Assembly: GCA_040753795.1 (NCBI GenBank)
Contig: JBFMDX010000009.1
Location: 62,001-126,000 of the forward strand
DNA: 64,000 bases
Origin: Thermodesulfobacteriota bacterium
GTDB lineage: Bacteria; Desulfobacterota; Desulfobacteria; Desulfobacterales; Desulfosudaceae
Direction of reading: 5' to 3'
Below are positions 23,988 to 52,450 of this stretch, in pieces. The notes under the pieces are model-generated. The model saw nothing but the letters and a program-made list of their open reading frames with translations, was not told the DNA's origin and searched no databases. The position numbers and the translations under genes are program-made. Numbering within the stretch: position 1 is the stretch's first letter; each line of letters begins with the position of its first letter.

Positions 23988-24647
23988 TTATTGTCTCCTC
24001 CAGCCTTGATTTTGTTTTAACCATTCATGTTCTTTCTGAACCATTTGGTATAATATTGGCGGGTTAAAATCACCGGTTCCAGGGACTGAATGCGCTTTGT
24101 CTCTTTCCTCCCACGTATTTAATTTCGGTAGTTCTACTATCCCAAATGTAATCGTAATTTTTTCCGGTAAAACGGTTAGAATACCGTTTTTATAAATTTT
24201 TTTATTAATTTCAGTTGTTGCTCCTGTTTTTCCAATAAACAGCCAAGACGGCCCGCAGTGCTGAAAAGGGATAATCTTTATTCGTTGTTCGGGATAACTC
24301 GCGTAACCGGGTTTATAAATAATAAATTGCGTCTCTGCGGCCTTCGAATTAAGGCCGACCAATCTCGTACAGGGCGGAATACGGAAGAAACCATCCTTAT
24401 CGGTCAACACTTCTTGTGCGTGTATATCTTTTCCCCACCCACCGCCAGGGTAACCAAAAATGGATTCAATCTGATAAACCGCTACGACCACCACTCCCTC
24501 AAGCGGCTCTTTTGTCTCCATGTCGATTATCTTGCCCTGATATGCCGGCTTATGAAAAATCAGCACCGCCTCGCATTCCGTCACGGACAGGACTCCTACT
24601 GACAGGAACAAGAACAGCAATAAAATATTTTTCAGATTTTTCATCAT
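23988..24647 (-). CDS. exported protein with carboxypeptidase-regulatory-like domain, paralog B
   Basis: A 219-residue protein read from the ATG complementary to 24645-24647, which has a GGAGGAGATAGAA Shine-Dalgarno; longer in-frame starts overlap the upstream gene. A signal peptide ends near VTECEA. Then comes a beta-sandwich domain of the carboxypeptidase-regulatory type (GKIIDMETKEPLEGVVVV ... LTDKDGFFRIPP ... IYKPGYASYP). The C-terminus is helical and ends NQGWRRQ. It is a tandem paralog of the next gene (24650-25360): the two match along their whole mature length. Such domains usually hold or present other proteins at the surface; the function here is unknown. Confidence 0.7.
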   Translation of the reverse strand: MMKNLKNILLLFLFLSVGVLSVTECEAVLIFHKPAYQGKIIDMETKEPLEGVVVVAVYQIESIFGYPGGGWGKDIHAQEVLTDKDGFFRIPPCTRLVGLNSKAAETQFIIYKPGYASYPEQRIKIIPFQHCGPSWLFIGKTGATTEINKKIYKNGILTVLPEKITITFGIVELPKLNTWEERDKAHSVPGTGDFNPPILYQMVQKEHEWLKQNQGWRRQ

Positions 24648-24649
24648 TT

Positions 24650-25360
24650 CTATCTCCTCCACCCTTGATTTCGCATTAGCCAATCATGTTCATCTTTAAG
24701 CATTTGATCTAATAGAGGCACTTTAAAATCAGGGGACGAAATTGAGCTGCCTATTCTTCTTTCTTCCCATGTATTCAACTTCGGCAGTTCCACTAGACCA
24801 AAGGTTACGGTGATTTTCTCCGGCAATTCGCGACCTATACCGTTGTTATAGTCTTTTTTATTAATTTCAGTCGTTGTTCCTATCTTTCCGGCAAACAACC
24901 ATTCCGGCCCGCAGTGTTGGAAGGGTGTTATTTTCAACTGCTGCCAGGGATAACTCGCGTATCCGGGCTTGAAGATAATAAATTTTGTCCATGACGCCCT
25001 TGAATTCAGCCCGATCAGGGTGGTGTACGCTGGGATATGAAACACCCCGTCCTTATCAGTCAGCGTCTCTTTGGCGTGAATATCCTTACTCCACCCGCCT
25101 GCCGGGCCGCCGATAATGGCGTCGATCTGATAAACCGTCACCACGACAACTCCCTCCAGGGGCTCCCTGGTCTCCATATCGATTATCCTGCCGGTATACG
25201 CGGGCTTATGAAATATCAGCACTGCCTCGCATTCCGTCACGACGAACACCCCTGCTGAAACCATCAGGATTAATGCCATCAGGCAGACCCGAAGCCCCTG
25301 CCTGTAACCGAACAAAGTGGTGGTGAAGTTTAATGCTGTCATATGATTCATTGCCTGCAT
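24650..25360 (-). CDS. exported protein with carboxypeptidase-regulatory-like domain, paralog A
   Basis: A 236-residue protein whose ATG (complement of 25358-25360) follows GAGAGGAAA. After a signal peptide ending VTECEA it carries the same domain as paralog B (GRIIDMETREPLEGVVVV, LTDKDGVFHIPA, FKPGYASYP, FQHCGPEWLFAGK), and it ends RNQGWRR. Only 2 bp separate the stop from the start of paralog B. Because the two copies sit head to tail and are similar but not identical, they arose from an older tandem duplication. Cys is not preceded by a Gly/Ala/Ser, so it is probably not a lipoprotein. Confidence 0.7.
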   Translation of the reverse strand: MQAMNHMTALNFTTTLFGYRQGLRVCLMALILMVSAGVFVVTECEAVLIFHKPAYTGRIIDMETREPLEGVVVVTVYQIDAIIGGPAGGWSKDIHAKETLTDKDGVFHIPAYTTLIGLNSRASWTKFIIFKPGYASYPWQQLKITPFQHCGPEWLFAGKIGTTTEINKKDYNNGIGRELPEKITVTFGLVELPKLNTWEERRIGSSISSPDFKVPLLDQMLKDEHDWLMRNQGWRR

Positions 25361-27252: not shown

Positions 27253-27909
27253 TCACTTTTTTTCGAGCTGAAAAATGCCGTAGGTGGCCAGGAGGTTGGG
27301 CCAGAAGCGGACAATGGCGCCGGTGTCCGAGGTCCGGCCCGGAGATGTGGCCACCTCCCGGACAAGGCGCATCTTCATCTGACCGGCGAAAATGCGGAAA
27401 TCCCGGATGCTCAGGACGCGGATGTTGGGCGTGTCGTACCACTGATAGGGAAGCTGCTCGGTGACCGGGGCCCGGCCGCCGAAGAGGAGCTGGGTCCGGA
27501 TGCGCCAGTGGCCGAAGTTGGGAAAGCTGACAATGGCCTTCTGGCCGATGCGGAGCATGGCGGCGATGAGCCGGGGCGGATCAAAGACCTGCTGCAGGGT
27601 CTGGCTTAAAATCACGTAATCAAAAGCGTTGTCCGGATAGTCTTCCACCTCGCGATTGATGTCGCCCTGGAGCACGCACAACCCCTTTTCAATGCACCGG
27701 GCCACCCGGGACTCCATGATCTCGATGCCCGTCTCCCGGACCTTTTTATGCGTCTTGAGGAAATGGAGCAGTTCCCCTTCGCCGCACCCCAGGCCCAGAA
27801 CCCGGGAACCCGGCTCGATCCAGGAGGCGATGATGGCTAAATCAAACCGCATATCCCGATTCGATTTGAAATCGGTCTGATATTTATTATTGTTATCCGG
27901 CGGATACAC
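27253..27909 (-). CDS. metW: methionine biosynthesis protein MetW
   Basis: A 218-residue class I methyltransferase-fold protein with glycine-rich motif [26 protein letters not shown] and the family block [38 protein letters not shown] and [16 protein letters not shown]. MetW partners with MetX and is needed for full homoserine acetylation activity in many proteobacteria. It overlaps the 3' end of metX by 17 bp, which fits coupled translation. It is the last gene of the regulator-metY-metX-metW operon. Confidence 0.92.
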
Positions 27910-29056
27910 TGTCCAGAAATCCTTTGATGAGCGCGCTCAAGCGCGGGTTGGGAATCAGAAAGGCGTCATGGCCCCAGTCGGCCTCGATTTCACAGAAGCT
28001 CACGTCCAGCCCGTTTTTCTTCATGGCGGTGACCATGGCCCGGGACTGGTAGGTGGGGTAGAGCCAGTCCGAGGTAAACGAGACCACCAGGAAGCGGGCC
28101 CGGGTTTTTCCGAAAGCCTCCACCGCCGAGCCATGACCGTGCTGGGCTTCCAGGTCGAAGTAGTCGGCGGCCTTGGTGATATAGAGAAAGGAATTGGCGT
28201 CGAACCGTTCCACGAACCTGGCGCCCTGGTAGCGCAGGTAACTCTCCACCTGGAAGTCGGCGCCAAAATCAAAGGAAAAAGTCTCCTTGTCCTGAAGACG
28301 TCGTCCGAACTTGCGGCGCATGGCTTCGTCGGAAAGGTAGGTGATATGGCCGATCATCCGGGCCACGGCCAGGCCCGTGTCCGGTTTGGCAGCGCCGTAG
28401 TAATCCCCGTTGTTCCAGTTGGGGTCGCTCATGATGGCCTGGCGGGCCACCTCGTTAAAAGCGATGGCCAGGGCCGAGTGGCGCGTGGTGGTGGCCAGGG
28501 GAATGGCCGAGGCCACCATTTCCGGATAGCGGACGGCCCACTCCAGCACCTGCATGCCGCCCATGGAGCCGCCCACCACGGTCAGCAACCGGCCGACGCC
28601 CAGATGATCCAGCAGGGCCTTCTGGGCCCGGACCATGTCGCCGATGGTAATGACCGGAAATCCGGCGCCATATGGCTTTCCCGTGGCCGGGTTGATTGAC
28701 GACGGCCCGGTGGAGCCCATGCATCCGCCGATGACGTTGGCGCAGACCACAAAATACCGGTCGGTGTCGATGCCCTTGCCCGGGCCGATCATGATGTCCC
28801 ACCAGCCCGGTTTGGGGTCGTCTTCGCTGTAGCACCCGGCGGCGTGGGCATCGCCGGTCAGGGCGTGGGCCACCAGCACGACATTGCTCTTGTCGGCGTT
28901 GAGCCGGCCGTACGTTTCAAAGGCCAGGGTCACCGGTCCCAGGCGGGCGCCGCTTTCCAGGGTCATTTCATCCGGCGGCCCGGCAAAGGTGAAGGTCTGT
29001 TTTTTAACCAGGCCCACCGAAGCCCCGCGCTGATCATGTTCGATGTATTCGCTCAT
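27893..29056 (-). CDS. metX: homoserine O-acetyltransferase MetX
   Basis: An alpha/beta-hydrolase-fold acyltransferase of 387 residues. The ATG complementary to 29054-29056 forms an ATGA overlap with the stop of metY, which decides the start over an upstream in-frame option. The nucleophile Ser lies in [10 protein letters not shown], the oxyanion and substrate block is [14 protein letters not shown], and the C-terminal Asp/His pair is in FTSDWLYP and WGHDAF. It acylates homoserine for direct sulfhydrylation. The acyl donor (acetyl or succinyl) cannot be decided by eye. Confidence 0.93.
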
Positions 29057-30312
29057 CCGGTCTGCTCCAGGGCCTGACCCAGGTCGGCGCAAATATCGTC
29101 GGCGTCTTCGATGCCCACGGAAAGCCGCAGCATCTCCGGCCCGATGCGCAAGCGCTGCCGGACGGCGTCATCAAAGGAAACATACTGGGTGGAAAAAGGA
29201 TGGATGATCAGGGTCCGGCAGTCACCCAGGTTGGCCAGATGGACAACCAGCTTCAGCCGGTTGATAAAGGCAAAGCAGGCGGCCTGGTCTTTCAACCCGA
29301 AGGTCAGCAGGCCCCCGCAGCCTTTGCCGCCGAACTGGGCCGCGGCCACGGCCTGGCAGGGATGGTCTTCAATGCCCGGATAGTTGACCCAGGCCACCTC
29401 CGGCCGGCCCTTTAAAAACCGGGCCACGGTCAGGGCGTTGGCGCAAATGCGCTCCATGCGCAGGGCCAGGGTGTCGATGCCGATCAGTGTCAGGTAACTG
29501 TGCAGGGGCGCCTGGGTGGCGCCGAAATTGATGTGCTGCTCGCGCCAGATTTTGTCCAGCAGGGCCGTCCGCCCTTTCCGTTCCACAAAAGGCCCGAAAT
29601 CGGGGAACCGGTCCCGGTTCCAGTCAAATACGCCGCCGTCGATGACGGCGCCGCCCACGGCCGCGCCGTGGCCGCACAGGTACTTGGTGGTGGAGTGGAT
29701 GACCGCGTCGGCCCCCAGTTCCAGGGGCCGGCACAGAAACGGCGTGGCCAGGGTGTTGTCCACCACCAGGGGCAGGCCGAGGCCGTGGGCCGTGTCGGCC
29801 ATGATCCGGATATCGGGAACGTCCATGGCCGGATTGCCGATGGTCTCCAGGTAGACAAAGCGGGTCCGCCCGGTGACGGCGGCCCGGACCGCGGCCGGAT
29901 CGGTCGGATCCGCCGGCACGGCCGTGATGCCGTATTTCTTAAACACGCTGGCAAAAAGCTGATAGGTGGACATGAACAGAGAGGTGCCGGCCACGAACTC
30001 GTCCCCGGCCCGCAGCAGGGCCAGGCAGGTATTGGCAATGGCGGCCATGCCCGAGGCCATGACAATGGCCCCGGCCCCGCCTTCAAGATCGGTCAGAACC
30101 TTTTCCAGGGCCTGGTTGGTGGGGTTGGACAGCCGGCTGTAGATCATATCCCCGGTTTTACCGGCAAAGGTCTGGTTCAGGTTTTCGGCGGTGTCGTGGG
30201 CAAAGGCCGCGTTCTGAAAAATGGGCGGCAGGGTGGCACCCTGCCAGCGGCTGTCGGGCCGGGTGTGATGAACCACCCGGGTGGAAAAGGCTTGCCGGGG
30301 TGTTTTCTTCAT
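29053..30312 (-). CDS. metY: O-acetylhomoserine sulfhydrylase MetY
   Basis: A PLP-dependent Cys/Met-metabolism enzyme of 419 residues. The cofactor Lys lies in [13 protein letters not shown], the phosphate-binding turn is ASGMAAI, and [14 protein letters not shown] and the terminal block [16 protein letters not shown] are typical. It makes homocysteine directly from O-acylhomoserine and sulfide, which suits a sulfide-producing anaerobe. The start overlaps the stop of the upstream HTH/two-CW regulator by an ATGA, so regulator and enzymes are translated from one transcript. Confidence 0.93.
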
Positions 30313-30773
30313 TTTTCCTTCTCCTTTGAAGAAGGGTTCTGGTCCGGCGCTTCGTCCAGCAGGGACGTCAGGACCGGGCAGGACCGGCAGACCCGGATCT
30401 TTTCCTTCCAGGTTTTATGGATCGTGCCGTGGCAGATGGTGCCGTTGATCAGCCAACACAGGGTGCCCCGGTTGAATTCCCAGGCCGGGCACTGGCGCCG
30501 GATTTGGGCCGGGCACTTGTTGACCACCCAGCACTCCCTCTGCCGGACCCCGCGGCCGTGACCGCTGACGGCCAGCAACAGCAACTGCTTTTCCACGTGA
30601 TCGGGCACCGAGCGCCAGCCCTGTTCATAGCTGTGCACCGCCTTGATGGAAACGCCCAGCAACTGAGCCATCTGCTTCTGCGTCTTGCCGAATCGCTTGC
30701 GCAGGTCTGAAAAATCCTGTCCGGTCACGGTTTTCTCCAGAAAATTCTTGAGGTTTTCCTTTGTCGGTGTCAT
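30309..30773 (-). CDS. XRE-type HTH regulator with C-terminal two-CW cysteine domain
   Basis: A 154-residue protein. Residues 20-70 form an XRE-like helix-turn-helix (KRFGKTQKQMAQLLGVSIKAVHSYEQGWR). Residues 81-133 hold seven cysteines (81, 87, 95, 106, 114, 129, 132) with Cys-Trp at 81-82 and 106-107, the pattern called two-CW, likely to bind Zn or an Fe-S cluster. As first gene of the metYXW operon, joined by an ATGA overlap, it is probably the operon's own regulator, sensing metal, redox or sulfide (inference). A perfect 19-bp palindrome lies 20 bp upstream of its start codon. Confidence 0.8.
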   Translation of the reverse strand: MTPTKENLKNFLEKTVTGQDFSDLRKRFGKTQKQMAQLLGVSIKAVHSYEQGWRSVPDHVEKQLLLLAVSGHGRGVRQRECWVVNKCPAQIRRQCPAWEFNRGTLCWLINGTICHGTIHKTWKEKIRVCRSCPVLTSLLDEAPDQNPSSKEKEK

Positions 30774-30792
30774 AAATAGACAACATCTTATT

Positions 30793-30811
30793 CATACCAC
30801 AATGTGGTATG
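30793..30811. promoter_or_regulatory. perfect 19-bp palindrome, likely operator for the HTH/two-CW regulator
   Basis: CATACCACA (30793-30801), a single central A, and TGTGGTATG (30803-30811). It lies in the 64-bp divergent gap between the regulator start (30773, minus strand) and tmk (30838, plus strand). Its position fits autorepression of the met operon, and possibly control of tmk. Confidence 0.65.
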
Positions 30812-30837
30812 TTTTTGTCAATAAAAAAGAATGCGCC

Positions 30838-31497
30838 ATGTTCATTACCCTGGAAGGAACCGAGGGGGCGGGAAAAACCACCCAGCTGCCCCACCTGGTC
30901 CGGTTTCTGGAAGACCGCGGCCACGACTGCGTCGTTACCCGGGAGCCGGGCGGAACGCCGACCGGGCTGAAGATCCGGGGGATCCTGCTGGACCCCGCCA
31001 ACCATGGCATGACGCCTGAGGCCGAGCTTTTTCTGTACGCGGCCGACCGGGCCCAGCACGTGGGCACCGTCATCCGGCCGGCCCTGGACGCAGGCAAAAC
31101 CGTGATCTGCGACCGGTTTATTGATGCCACCGAAGCCTACCAGGGCGCGGCCCGGGGCCTTGACCGGGAACTGATCAGCCTGCTCAACCGGGTGGCCACC
31201 GGCGGCCTGAAGCCGGATTTGACGATCCTGTTTGACCTGCCTCCGGAAACCGGCCTGGAACGCGCCTGGGAGCGGATCAACCGCAACGGTAACGGCGCCG
31301 CCGACCACCGCTTTGAAACAGAAGACATCAATTTTCACAACCGGGTCCGGGACGGGTACCTGGCCATCGCCGCCCGGGAGCCGGAACGGTTTGTGATCAT
31401 CAACGCCGACGGCAGCGAGGAGGATGTGCGGAAGGCGTTACTGGCGGGGGTGGGGAAAAGGGGTCGAGGGGTCGAGGGGTCGAGGGGTCAAGGGTGA
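30838..31497 (+). CDS. tmk: thymidylate kinase with repeat-derived C-terminal tail
   Basis: A 219-residue dTMP kinase from the ATG at 30838, which gives the canonical MFITLEGTEGAGKTTQ P-loop start; upstream in-frame Met codons lie in the promoter region. TREPGGTPTGLKIR, the DR motif in VICDRFIDATEAYQG and GLDRELI are intact. It phosphorylates dTMP to dTDP. The last 12-14 residues (GKRGRGVEGSRGQG) come from octamer repeat array B and are not part of the family fold. The gene is divergent from the met-operon regulator. Confidence 0.92.
   Translation: MFITLEGTEGAGKTTQLPHLVRFLEDRGHDCVVTREPGGTPTGLKIRGILLDPANHGMTPEAELFLYAADRAQHVGTVIRPALDAGKTVICDRFIDATEAYQGAARGLDRELISLLNRVATGGLKPDLTILFDLPPETGLERAWERINRNGNGAADHRFETEDINFHNRVRDGYLAIAAREPERFVIINADGSEEDVRKALLAGVGKRGRGVEGSRGQG
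31460..31494. repeat. degenerate octamer repeat array B, inside the tmk 3' end
   Basis: Four and a half units of exact 8-bp period (ggggtcga three times, ggggtcaa, ggg). The array lies inside the tmk reading frame and encodes its last residues; the stop codon follows at once. The orientation is opposite to that of array C 230 bp downstream. The 318-bp gap 31498-31815 holds array C, a perfect palindrome at 31606-31628 and otherwise no gene that I can see. Confidence 0.85.
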
Positions 31498-31758: not shown

Positions 31759-31815
31759 TATAGTGCTATGGGGCTCTGCCTTAAGGCCAATTGATATAGA
31801 ACCAAGGAACCCCCT

Positions 31816-34125
31816 ATGACCACTCTCCTGGACTTCATCGGCAACACCCCCCTGGTGGAAATACGGCGGATCTGCCCCCGGCCCGGGGTCCGCATCCTGG
31901 CCAAGCTGGAATACATGAACCCGGGCGGGTCCATCAAGGACAGGGCCGCGCTTTACATGATCGAGGAAGGGGAAAAGTCCGGCCTGCTGACCAAAGACAA
32001 AATCGTCATCGAAGCCACCAGCGGCAATACCGGCATCGGCCTGGCCATGGTCTGCGCCATCAAGGGCTACCGGCTCTGCCTGGCCATGTCGGAAAACGCC
32101 AGCGAGGAGCGCAAACGCATTCTCAAGGGTCGCGGCGCCGAAATCCTGCTGACCCCGGGACACCTGGGAACCGACGGCGCCATCGAGGAGGTCTACCGGC
32201 TGGTGCGGGAAAATCCCGACAAATACTACATGACCGATCAGTTCAACAACGAGGCCAACTGGAAGGCCCACTACTACGGCACCGCCGAGGAGATCTGGCG
32301 CCAGACCGAGGGCCGAATAGACACCATGGTGGCCACGCTCGGGACCAGCGGCACGGCCATGGGCCTGGCCCGGCGGCTGAAGGAGCTCAAACCCGATATC
32401 CGCATGGTCGGGGTGGAGCCCTTCCTGGGGCACAAGATCCAGGGCCTGAAAAACATGAAGGAGTCCTATCAGCCTGAAATCTATTCCCGAAAGTGGCTCG
32501 ACGACAAGCCCAACATAGACGACGAAGAAGCCTTTGCCATGGCCCGGCGCCTGGCCGCCGAGGAGGGGCTGTTCGTGGGCATGAGCAGCGGCGCGGCCAT
32601 GGCCGTGGCCTGCGCCGAAGCCATGCGGCTGGAAAAGGGCACGGTGGTGACCATTTTCCCGGACAGCGGCGAGCGCTATTTAAGCACCACCCTTTTTGCC
32701 GTGCGGGAGACCGTCGATATCCGGCTTTACAACACCGCCACCCGGCAGAAGGAGAACTTTGTGCCGCTCTCGCCGGGCCGGGTCTCCATGTATTCCTGCG
32801 GCCCTACGGCCAACGCCCGCATGAGCCTGGGCCACTGCCGCCGCATGGTCTTCGCCGACGTGCTGTCCCGCTACCTGATCTACCGGGGATATGCCGTCCG
32901 GCATATCGTCAACATCACCGATTTTGACGACAACACCATCGAAGGCGCGGAAAAGGCCGGTAAAAGCCTGACCGAATTCACCCGCGGGTATATCGATCAT
33001 ATCAAGCAGGACCTGGCCGCCCTGGGCGTCAAGCCGGCCGAGAAATACCCCCTGCCCAGCGAGGAGTTCCCGGAAATGGTGGATATGGCGGAGAAGCTGG
33101 TCGCCAGGGGCGTGGCCTATGAAAAGCTGCGGTCCGTCTATTTTGACATTTCCAGCCTGGGGGATTACGGCGACCTTTCCCGGGTCGACGCCGACAAGAT
33201 CCGGCTGGGCGCCACCGTTGACCTGGACGAATACGAAAAGGACAATCCCCGCGACTTTACCCTGCTCAAGCGGGCCCGGCTGGGGGAATTAAAGAAAGGT
33301 CTTTACGTCCAGACCAAGTGGGGCAATGTCCGGCCGTCGTTGCACCTGCAGTGCGCGGCCATGTCCCGTAAATATCTGGGCGATCAGTTTGATATTCATA
33401 CCGGCAGCTTTAACCTGGTCTTCCCGCACCATGAAAACGAACAGGCCATATCCCGGGCCCTGACCGGCAAAACGCCGGCCCGGTTCTGGATTCATTGCGA
33501 AACGGTTTTGTCGGAAGAGAGCGGCGCCTGGAAACCCGCCGTCATGACCATTGAAGAGGCCCTGGCCGCCGGCCTGACCGGCCGCCAGCTGCGCTACTGG
33601 TTTGTTTCGGTCCATTACCGCAAGCCCCTGACCTTTTCGCGGGAAAGCGTGGACATGGCCGCCCGCTCCCTGGCCCGCCTGGACAACTGTGTCAGGGCCC
33701 TGGCCGCCATTGCCGGAAAACCGTCCGGGGACAAACCGGAAAAGGAGCGCGCCACCCGGCAGGAGATCGACCAGATCATTTATAATATCCGCCAGGGCGT
33801 GGTCGACGCCATGGACGATGACCTGAATGTCTCCGAGGCCCTGGCCAGCATTTTCAAAAACATCAAGCAGATCAACACCTTTCTGGCGGACGGCGCCCTG
33901 GATGGCGCTGACGCGCAAAAAATCATGGACGCTTTTGCGCAGATCGACCAGGTATTGAACCTTTTTGATTTTTCAGAACCGGCCGCGGATACCTCGGCCC
34001 GGGTTCAGGCGTTGATGCGGCAGCGGGACCAGGCCCGGAAGGAAAAAAACTGGGCCCTGGCCGATGAACTGCGTAAGACCCTGCAGGAAATGGGGGTTGC
34101 GGTGGTAGATACCAAGCGCGATTAG
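31816..34125 (+). CDS. cysteine synthase fused to a degenerate cysteinyl-tRNA synthetase-like domain
   Basis: A 769-residue fusion. Residues 1 to about 305 are a PLP-dependent cysteine synthase: Lys41 in NPGGSIKDR, the TSGNTGIGLAM loop and the GTSGTAMG phosphate loop. Residues about 312-769 align along their full length with cysteinyl-tRNA synthetase: Cys328 in MYSCGPT, NITDFDDNTI, LHLQCAAMSRKYLG, FPHHENE and HYRKPLTFS. Two class I signatures are damaged: HIGH reads SLGH (337-340), and at the KMSKS position (about 566-576) the sequence is SEESGAWKPAV. The Trp of the usual WHIECSAM is Leu. The synthase half looks active; the second half may have lost tRNA charging or may use cysteine for another product. 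It is possibly transcribed alone between repeat arrays C and D. Confidence 0.9.
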   Translation: MTTLLDFIGNTPLVEIRRICPRPGVRILAKLEYMNPGGSIKDRAALYMIEEGEKSGLLTKDKIVIEATSGNTGIGLAMVCAIKGYRLCLAMSENASEERKRILKGRGAEILLTPGHLGTDGAIEEVYRLVRENPDKYYMTDQFNNEANWKAHYYGTAEEIWRQTEGRIDTMVATLGTSGTAMGLARRLKELKPDIRMVGVEPFLGHKIQGLKNMKESYQPEIYSRKWLDDKPNIDDEEAFAMARRLAAEEGLFVGMSSGAAMAVACAEAMRLEKGTVVTIFPDSGERYLSTTLFAVRETVDIRLYNTATRQKENFVPLSPGRVSMYSCGPTANARMSLGHCRRMVFADVLSRYLIYRGYAVRHIVNITDFDDNTIEGAEKAGKSLTEFTRGYIDHIKQDLAALGVKPAEKYPLPSEEFPEMVDMAEKLVARGVAYEKLRSVYFDISSLGDYGDLSRVDADKIRLGATVDLDEYEKDNPRDFTLLKRARLGELKKGLYVQTKWGNVRPSLHLQCAAMSRKYLGDQFDIHTGSFNLVFPHHENEQAISRALTGKTPARFWIHCETVLSEESGAWKPAVMTIEEALAAGLTGRQLRYWFVSVHYRKPLTFSRESVDMAARSLARLDNCVRALAAIAGKPSGDKPEKERATRQEIDQIIYNIRQGVVDAMDDDLNVSEALASIFKNIKQINTFLADGALDGADAQKIMDAFAQIDQVLNLFDFSEPAADTSARVQALMRQRDQARKEKNWALADELRKTLQEMGVAVVDTKRD

Positions 34126-34200: not shown

Positions 34201-35181
34201 ATGCTCGAACCCGTTCTTTTCCCTTTTACCTGCCTGGATGAAAAAACCGCCGGGATGCTGCTGGCCTGCTTCGATCGCATCCGGGTGTATCTGCCCACGG
34301 ATTCCGCAGCCGGCGATATGGACCCGGACGTGCTGAAAACCGGCCTGGTCACGGCGGTCAACCCCCTGGCCGACAGCGGTCTTCAGGCGGACCGGATATT
34401 TCAGGAATACCGCCAGTGGCGCCAGGCCAACCGGGGCACGGATATTTCCTTTTTCAAGATGTCGGGCAGCACCATCCCCTTTTTCGACGAATCAACCATT
34501 TCCTTTTTAAAACAGGACATCGTCCATGCCTCTTCCCGCACGGAAAAAGAACCGGACCTGCTCCTGGCCGCGCGCGTCTTCCTGCGCATGACCGGCAACT
34601 ATGACCGCGCCCAGGCGGACATCGCCGAAGATCTCCTGCTGCAAAGCGAAAAGGAACTGACCATGCTGGCGGCCCTGCATGGGGATGACGATGATGATGA
34701 TCAGGAGGATCTGACCGTTCCGGCGGCGCAAAGCCTGACCGCCGATACCGGTGAACTGATGACCCGGGAACGGCTGACTGCCTGGTCCATGCTGACGTCG
34801 GAAAACGACGCCCTCCCTTCATTATTTGTCACGCCCAGCCGGGCGGTCTTTGCCGCCGTTATGGATCATTTTGAAAGTCATACCGCGACATGGGAGAACA
34901 TCCCCGCTCCCGGGGATTTGCCGCACCGGGATGATCCGGTCTTGTCTTTGTGGCGGCAGGACCTGTCGGCTTTTTTCAACGGCCTGCTGAAGGGTGACGC
35001 CGGCGCTCCGCCCCCCTGTCCGTTAAAAAAGCCCGGCGCCTTTTTAACGGTGATCCGGTTGGCTGAGATATCCCCTCGTGATTTTTTGAAAAAGCTTCAA
35101 ACCCCGTCCCCGGAAAGACTAAAACACCAGGAAAAACAATCGGTTGAATCAACCATTGTGGCGGCTGTTTTCCCGGCATAA
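34201..35181 (+). CDS. hypothetical protein with acidic linker
   Basis: A 326-residue cytoplasmic protein without signal peptide or TM segment that I do not recognise. The N-terminal part (MLEPVLFPFTCLDEKTAGMLLACF...) is mixed alpha/beta. A run of six Asp with flanking acidic residues (HGDDDDDDQED, about residues 160-170) links it to a second helical part, and the C-terminus ends in ESTIVAAVFPA. It follows the CysK/CysRS fusion after repeat array D and precedes ferredoxin. Nothing in the sequence points to a function. Confidence 0.7.
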   Translation: MLEPVLFPFTCLDEKTAGMLLACFDRIRVYLPTDSAAGDMDPDVLKTGLVTAVNPLADSGLQADRIFQEYRQWRQANRGTDISFFKMSGSTIPFFDESTISFLKQDIVHASSRTEKEPDLLLAARVFLRMTGNYDRAQADIAEDLLLQSEKELTMLAALHGDDDDDDQEDLTVPAAQSLTADTGELMTRERLTAWSMLTSENDALPSLFVTPSRAVFAAVMDHFESHTATWENIPAPGDLPHRDDPVLSLWRQDLSAFFNGLLKGDAGAPPPCPLKKPGAFLTVIRLAEISPRDFLKKLQTPSPERLKHQEKQSVESTIVAAVFPA

Positions 35182-47118: not shown

Positions 47119-47230
47119 AACCATACTTCCGGCAGGGATAGGGGCGGGCTGATCACCTGCCCCGAACGGCGGAAACCTGGACCGCCTTCCCTGATCTTCA
47201 CTATCAGGGCCGGAACCAGGCAACGGGATA

Positions 47231-52375: not shown

Positions 52376-52424
52376 CTGGCTGAGGGATAAGGATTCGAAC
52401 CTTAATAAACGGGGCCAGAACCCG
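52376..52424. repeat. right attachment site (inside the intact tRNA-Gln gene)
   Basis: These 49 bp are identical to 44948-44996. They start one base outside the encoded CCA and end in the 5' strand of the anticodon stem. Confidence 0.95.
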
Positions 52425-52450
52425 TTGTCCTGCCGTTGGACGATCCCTCA
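52377..52450 (-). tRNA. tRNA-Gln (anticodon CTG)
   Basis: A complete cloverleaf on the minus strand: acceptor TGAGGGA/TCCCTCA, D-arm GTCC/GGAC, anticodon stem ACGGG/CCCGT around loop TTCTGGC (anticodon CTG, bases 52416-52418), T-stem TAAGG/CCTTA, discriminator G and encoded CCA (52377-52379). It lies 50 bp downstream of gltX on the same strand and may be cotranscribed. In bacteria without glutaminyl-tRNA synthetase, GltX first charges this tRNA with Glu. The island at 44948-52424 is inserted in its 3' half and keeps the gene functional. Confidence 0.95.

Follow-up and report, generated by a model that had tools for sequence, protein, structure and literature searches.

A 64,000-nucleotide stretch of contig JBFMDX010000009.1 (positions 62,001 to 126,000; assembly GCA_040753795.1) from a Thermodesulfobacteriota bacterium of the family Desulfosudaceae, order Desulfobacterales, was analyzed here and is called the window. 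It carries a single open reading frame (ORF) in which a pyridoxal phosphate (PLP)-dependent cysteine synthase of the CysK/CysM subfamily is joined to a half that resembles cysteinyl-tRNA synthetase (CysRS). The gene, its two halves, the positions of the synthetase signatures, and the other features discussed below are listed in Table 1.

Table 1. Features of the fusion gene and of the surrounding window (window coordinates; residue numbers are those of the fusion protein).
Feature	Position	Strand	Residues	Remarks
Cysteine synthase-CysRS fusion	31816..34125	+	769 aa	One ORF; CysK/CysM subfamily plus CysRS-like half
Shine-Dalgarno-like AAGGA	31804..31808	+		7 nt ahead of the ATG; read directly
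PLP cysteine synthase half	31816..32700	+	1-295	Lys41 and SGNTG (69-73) kept
CysRS-like half	32713..34122	+	300-769	
SLGH	32824..32835	+	337-340	Where HIGH is expected; Arg342-Arg343 pair next
LHLQCAAM	33340..33363	+	509-516	Where WHIECSAM is expected; presumed zinc ligand Cys513 kept
FPHHENE	33421..33441	+	536-542	Presumed zinc ligands His538 and Glu542 kept
KMSKS-loop position	33511..33543	+	About 566-576	Motif absent
Presumed anticodon-reading residues	34024..34110	+	R737, R741, W746, D750, R753, D765	E. coli 423, 427, 432, 436, 439, 451; from E. coli CysRS alignment
tmk (thymidylate kinase)	30685..31497	+		Usual upstream neighbor in the order; Pfam match of the L260 relative, same cluster
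c5	34201..35181	+	326 aa	Conserved protein; usual downstream neighbor
metW-like, metX-like, O-acetylhomoserine sulfhydrylase-like genes	27253-30312	-		By eye
Two overlapping ORFs	23988-25360	-	231 and 236 aa	Alike by eye
int-alpA RNA	47131-47209	+		Rfam RF02996, 38.4 bits
tRNA-Gln	52377-52450	-		

Family models recognize both halves of the protein. The first half resembles CysM and CysK in its catalytic lysine and SGNTG loop and in its match to the NCBIfam cysteine synthase model TIGR01136 over residues 6 to 294 (354.4 bits; cutoff, 344.15), and Pfam family PF00291 spans residues 6 to 283. It differs from these enzymes in being fused and in falling below both equivalog cutoffs (CysM, 345.5 versus 394.2 bits; CysK, 314.6 versus 350.95 bits). 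The second half matches the NCBIfam CysRS model TIGR00435 over residues 303 to 767 (349.8 bits; cutoff, 340) and contains PF01406, DALR_2, and the CysS_C anticodon-binding domain. The AlphaFold2 model of the fusion has a mean predicted local distance difference test score (pLDDT) of 87, with most of the CysRS half at 90 or more. In structural comparisons, the CysRS half aligned with tRNA-bound Escherichia coli CysRS 1u0b_B (Z, 48.7; root mean square deviation [rmsd], 3.8; 437 residues; model range, 301 to 768) and with MshC 3c8z_A (Z, 43.4; rmsd, 2.0; 369 residues), the latter match reaching residue 718, and the PLP half aligned with cysteine synthase structures at a Z of about 35 (e.g., 4aec_B: Z, 36.5; rmsd, 2.2; 294 residues). 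Judged by its motifs, the window fusion appears to be an active cysteine synthase.

Full-length homologs, 70% and 68% identical to the window protein, are encoded in two other genomes of its family. At an E value of ≤1e-100, 14 of 96 genomes in the order sample had no match (counted by eye), and 131 of 147 genomes in the class sample, all of which fall in one order, that of the window, had a match, a few as fragments. Of the 297 genomes in the phylum sample, at least 117 have the fusion, three of them (G194, G244, and G466) as truncated matches. It is also found in metagenome-assembled genomes titled Desulfonema limicola, Desulforapulum autotrophicum, Desulfobacterales bacterium, and Proteobacteria bacterium (L009 to L012). 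Because full-length homologs exist in the family and the fusion is widely spread in the order, class, and phylum, we conclude that it is real, the product of neither chance nor sequencing error. The ORF, the two model matches, and these homologs thus bear out the original prediction, made from the sequence of the window, of a 769-residue cysteine synthase-CysRS fusion. A plasmid search with the CysRS half covered 624 records, none of which reached 60% identity. An origin of the fusion from neighboring genes was rejected: none of the 14 stretches around stand-alone relatives of the PLP half (L295 to L307 and L309), several of them cut by contig ends, contained a CysRS-like ORF. Some fusion frames are longer, at 819 to 862 aa (L310 in G111, L311 in G107, and L312 in G037); the matches of L310 and L311 are interrupted close to residue 275, pointing to an insert toward the end of the PLP half.

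The two halves evolve at different rates. Lys41 and each residue of the Ser69-Gly73 loop are present in 113/113 fusion rows, and mean pairwise identity within the order is 77% for the PLP half versus 62% for the CysRS half. These figures show the PLP half to be tightly constrained.

To follow the CysRS half, we used a joint alignment of 33 canonical CysRS rows and 112 fusion halves, the truncated L168 being left out of the 113 fusions; rows in this alignment and in the tree described below were trimmed to the matched stretch. The motif changes that had been read from the window protein, namely, SLGH, LHLQCAAM, and the absence of KMSKS, as well as the retained FPHHENE block and Cys328, are all as claimed. 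In this protein, the changes affect the first His of HIGH, the KMSKS lysines, two residues of WHIEC (Trp and Glu), and the GGGxD Asp. All 33 canonical rows keep both HIGH histidines and KMSKS; among the 113 fusions, the first His is kept in 63, the fourth in 10, and both in just 1. With the window's family set aside, 42 of 50 order rows have Glu as the fourth HIGH residue; SLGH is the form in the window's genome, and the two other family members have DLGQ and DLGK. Given these variants, the signatures vary across the family and no single new motif has become fixed. In the same 50 order rows, the WHIEC Glu is invariably replaced by Gln (50/50) and the GGGxD Asp is usually replaced by Glu (40/50), and a KMSKS-like motif is present in 0/53 order rows. 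Within the order, erosion is most advanced in the window's family, where the first His has become Ser, Asp, and Asp and the WHIEC Trp has become Leu in 3/3 members. Two arginines accompany the decay: R342 and R343 are present in 112/112 fusion rows, and the second of these positions is Ser, Ala, or Cys in 33/33 canonical rows of the phylum, making R343 a new invariant arginine after the former HIGH motif.

A search for a second, intact cysS, as the original prediction had proposed, found one in the window's own genome (L003/L195, contig C29). Its product has HIGH, WHIECSAM, and KMSKS intact, reaches 562 bits with the CysS model, and is 37% identical to the window CysRS half; the gene adjoins an ORF named by eye as ispF-like. 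The same genome has a separate CysK-like gene, next to an ORF that is cysE-like by eye. A cysS match at an E value of ≤1e-100 was found in 111/117 fusion genomes. Among the other six, G012 (L231), G055 (L230), and G270 (L229) encode another type of CysRS, with H[IL]GN and KMAKS; G308 (L228) encodes a 419-aa CysRS-like protein with THLGHA and KMSKS that is without the C-terminal domain and branches next to MshC; G203 has a fragment at a contig end; and none was found at all in G384 (82% complete). Because the alternative type of CysRS has Asn at the fourth HIGH position, a missing fourth His does not by itself prove inactivity. Loss of the ATP-site signatures in an otherwise kept fold, together with the separate intact cysS, supports the earlier suggestion that the role of this half is other than tRNA charging, and we infer that charging has been lost.

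The phylogenetic position of the CysRS half was examined with a quick maximum-likelihood tree of 114 CysRS-type rows with MshC as the root group, which included 78 of the 113 fusions, 19 of the 33 canonical rows, and 7 of the 8 rows of an actinobacterial set (L055 gave no ORF). The 78 fusion halves formed a single clade with a Shimodaira-Hasegawa-like approximate likelihood ratio test (SH-aLRT) support of 100, apart from ordinary CysRS and from MshC. The 19 canonical phylum rows (99), the 7 actinobacterial rows (100), and the 6 MshC rows (100) were also recovered as groups. The group nearest to the fusion clade was the H[IL]GN-type CysRS, with an SH-aLRT of 93, which is not strong.

We take the zinc/cysteine ligands of CysRS to be Cys, Cys, His, and Glu, and the corresponding C328, C513, H538, and E542 are all kept in the window protein, which may in addition still bind zinc and cysteine. 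This site is not universal among the fusions. A clade of 12 rows has lost three of the four ligands, both cysteines and the Glu, and keeps the His. Outside this zinc-less clade, the first Cys is kept in 43/47 non-order rows, 49/50 order rows, and 3/3 rows of the window's family, and the second Cys is kept in 46/47, 47/50, and 3/3 rows, respectively; the Glu is found in only 23/47 non-order rows.

The anticodon domain has fared differently. Arg423, Arg427, Trp432, and Asp436 of E. coli CysRS are described as contacting G34 (PMC12684709). These contacts were mapped onto the window protein through an ungapped C-terminal alignment to E. coli CysRS. The equivalents of Arg423, Arg427, and Asp436 are kept in 112, 110, and 111 of the 112 fusions, respectively, and the Trp432 equivalent is aromatic (Trp, Phe, or Tyr) in all 112. 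R753 and D765, whose E. coli counterparts (439 and 451) we assume to be anticodon-reading positions as well, are each present in 111/112 fusion rows. We also compared the fate of columns in which at least 95% of 40 ordinary CysS sequences agree, 64 in the catalytic part and 10 in the anticodon domain. The zinc-less clade keeps 14/64 catalytic versus 7/10 anticodon-domain columns (Fisher test, P = 0.004), and the other non-order rows keep 26/64 versus 9/10 (P = 0.005). Because the anticodon-reading residues are nearly invariant, a tRNA is probably still involved, albeit not through charging. The original prediction overlooked this near-invariance and the pattern of decay.

Since the alignment rows had been trimmed, we went back to whole ORFs to check that MshC lacks an anticodon domain; the query was the C-terminal part of the window genome's own CysS, run against 10 of the 113 fusions and 10 of the 33 canonical rows, as well as actinobacterial CysS and MshC. 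The domain was found in 10/10 fusions (E value of 3.2e-6 or better), six of them zinc-less fusions whose scores against the whole CysS are down to 70 to 190 bits, and in 10/10 canonical and 6/6 actinobacterial CysS (1.1e-4 or better); in whole MshC ORFs, it was found in 0/6 (best E value, 0.36).

We propose, with confidence that stops a little short of even, that the CysRS half is charging-dead, still binds tRNA-Cys, and gates or localizes the attached synthase. A paralog of CysRS would have lost tRNA charging, its anticodon-binding domain would keep hold of tRNA-Cys, and the tRNA, probably through its charged or uncharged state, would control or position the fused cysteine synthase. Such a tRNA-reading module would account for the persistence of the fusion in rows that have lost the ATP site and even the zinc site. 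The logic would resemble that of HisZ, which regulates HisG, or that of the HisRS-like domain of GCN2. The likeness to HisZ would be that a synthetase paralog devoid of adenylation controls the enzyme that makes its own amino acid, and the loss of ATP motifs in the fusion is consistent with it; HisZ itself has a class II fold, is a separate polypeptide, and is not homologous to the fusion half. That tRNA-Cys, read at its anticodon by a charging-dead half, switches or places the fused synthase in much of this phylum of sulfur bacteria is a possibility that we hold with greater reserve. In a bolder form of the proposal, the PLP half would act on a tRNA-borne residue itself.

Several observations weigh against this proposal. 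Outside the order, a KMSKS-like motif is kept in 16/60 fusions and the WHIEC Glu in 41/47 rows beyond the zinc-less clade, so charging may survive in fusions that keep either one; the same retained motifs make it probable that the ATP site was more complete in the ancestor. The conservation contrast is not significant in the order rows (37/64 catalytic versus 7/10 anticodon-domain columns; P = 0.73) or in the window's family (38/64 versus 8/10; P = 0.30), and the Fisher tests, here as above, assume that columns are independent and make no correction for relatedness. The C-terminal GTxW tail typical of canonical CysRS is missing from order members, with W474 gapped in 42/50 order rows and in 3/3 rows of the window's family. 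The Arg and Asp residues that persist might have a structural role, and tRNA binding, gating, and the direction of gating are steps that we infer.

The CysRS half might instead be a cysteine sensor that works without tRNA, with free cysteine at its zinc site feeding back on the synthase. The four presumed ligands kept beside a lost ATP site in the window protein, and the zinc cysteines kept in most rows, would suit such a sensor, and HisZ, a HisRS paralog reported to mediate allosteric inhibition by His (PMC9437257), offers a precedent. However, the 12-row clade without both zinc cysteines still keeps the fusion and the anticodon residues, the Glu ligand is missing from many other non-order rows, and the WHIEC Trp is Leu in the window's family. 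Since 12/112 rows have lost the zinc cysteines, sensing is not easily the family-wide role; the sensor put forward in the original prediction is possible for the window protein itself, and as a general explanation we regard it as unlikely. A half serving only as a scaffold or oligomerization domain, with no ligand and kept by constructive neutral evolution, would fit the faster evolution of the CysRS half, but near-invariance of R737, R741, D750, R753, and D765 and of the Arg pair over 112 rows would be unexpected, making this account rather improbable. Retention of true synthetase activity despite unusual motifs, as a backup for cysS or as a coupling of synthesis to charging, is very doubtful: the KMSKS-like motifs outside the order, the many fusions that keep WHIEC and HLGx, and the H[IL]GN and KMAKS motifs of the second CysRS type in G012, G055, and G270, by which loss of the fourth His need not be fatal, speak for it, and the combined change of the HIGH, KMSKS, WHIEC, and GGGxD residues in the window protein, with an intact cysS in the same genome, speaks against it.

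Two further alternatives involve other chemistry. One chain holds both the anticodon-reading residues and complete PLP motifs; the CysRS half could then offer tRNA-Cys bearing a serine-type residue to the PLP half for conversion to Cys-tRNA, making the fusion a counterpart of SepCysS within a single protein. No tRNA-Cys-misacylating enzyme is known in this setting, however, and the window's own genome has an ordinary cysS, while neither SepCysS nor SepRS scored over its cutoff there (best, 25.6 and 24 bits), by which a SepRS/SepCysS pathway was rejected; we consider tRNA-dependent cysteine formation a most improbable role. The last is an MshC-like ligase that makes a small thiol with cysteine from the fused synthase. 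MshC is listed as a CysRS paralog with a non-tRNA role (PMC9437257), the fusion half would likewise act outside translation, and it has its catalytic fold in common with 3c8z_A. MshC, however, shows the reverse pattern: the six MshC rows keep the ATP motifs (HLGH or HMGH, and KMSKS) and show no anticodon domain, whereas in the fusion the ATP site required for adenylation is eroded and the anticodon residues are kept. The fusion also scores only 156.1 bits against the MshC model TIGR03447 (cutoff, 485.1) and belongs to a separate clade. Motifs, domain makeup, and tree led us to reject an MshC-type identity; the MshC kind of ligase named in the original prediction is not supported, and a ligase that is MshC-like in function is, of all the roles weighed here, the one we find hardest to credit.

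Comparison with ordinary CysS shows what the fusion has kept and what it has lost. The fold, the anticodon domain, a TIGR00435 score over the cutoff, and, in the window protein, the presumed zinc ligands are common to both; the fusion differs in its lost HIGH, GGGxD, and KMSKS motifs, changed WHIEC, extra Arg, N-terminal synthase, and separate clade. Another CysRS paralog, CysRS*, has been reported in Desulfobacterales, where it is described as lacking the anticodon domain, charging a tRNA, and lying by selB*/selC* (PMC9437257 and PMC7609411). Unlike CysRS*, the fusion has a CysS_C domain and lacks the ATP motifs; within the order its usual neighbors are tmk and c5, no search having been aimed at selB or selC themselves. 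We rejected a CysRS* identity on its motifs, domain makeup, and tree.

The surroundings of the fusion gene are conserved within the order, where a frequent arrangement is surE, an HD/OB-fold protein gene, tmk, the fusion, and c5. The tmk cluster is present at 23/25 order-type loci and c5 lies directly downstream at 22/25; the neighbors vary at 20 loci outside the order. c5 was found in 27/297 phylum genomes, all 27 of which are among those with the fusion (hypergeometric P = 1.6e-12, which ignores relatedness), and in some genomes (G005, G063, G413, and G373) it is located on a different contig or at another site. The protein evolves fast, being 22 to 23% identical to four relatives. It has no Pfam match and no credible NCBIfam match; a hit to phosphatidylserine decarboxylase (16.8 bits; cutoff, 371) was put down to chance, and its structural model (pLDDT, 70) had no PDB match at an E value of ≤0.001.

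At the Rfam gathering thresholds, the window contains just a tRNA and an int-alpA RNA, neither near the fusion gene, and no regulatory RNA at the locus; the two are perhaps marks of an integrated element. Beyond tmk, on the opposite strand, lies the run of met-like genes, a second sulfur amino acid cluster close to the fusion, which was not noted among the shared neighbors of other order loci, where it was not searched for. The two overlapping ORFs listed in Table 1 are probably a tandem duplication.

The table of duplicated synthetases in a 2022 review gives MshC and CysRS* as the CysRS paralogs (PMC9437257), and among the titles and opening lines of abstracts listed by searches of the open-licence literature for the fusion or for CysRS paralogs, we found none that names the fusion. 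The fusion half is a third kind of CysRS paralog, common across one phylum and joined to a cysteine-making enzyme, and its decay runs opposite to that of MshC, with the ATP motifs gone and the anticodon residues kept. If tRNA binding holds true, the fusion would couple tRNA-Cys directly and physically to cysteine synthesis, and it may bear on how sulfide-rich cells keep cysteine in check.

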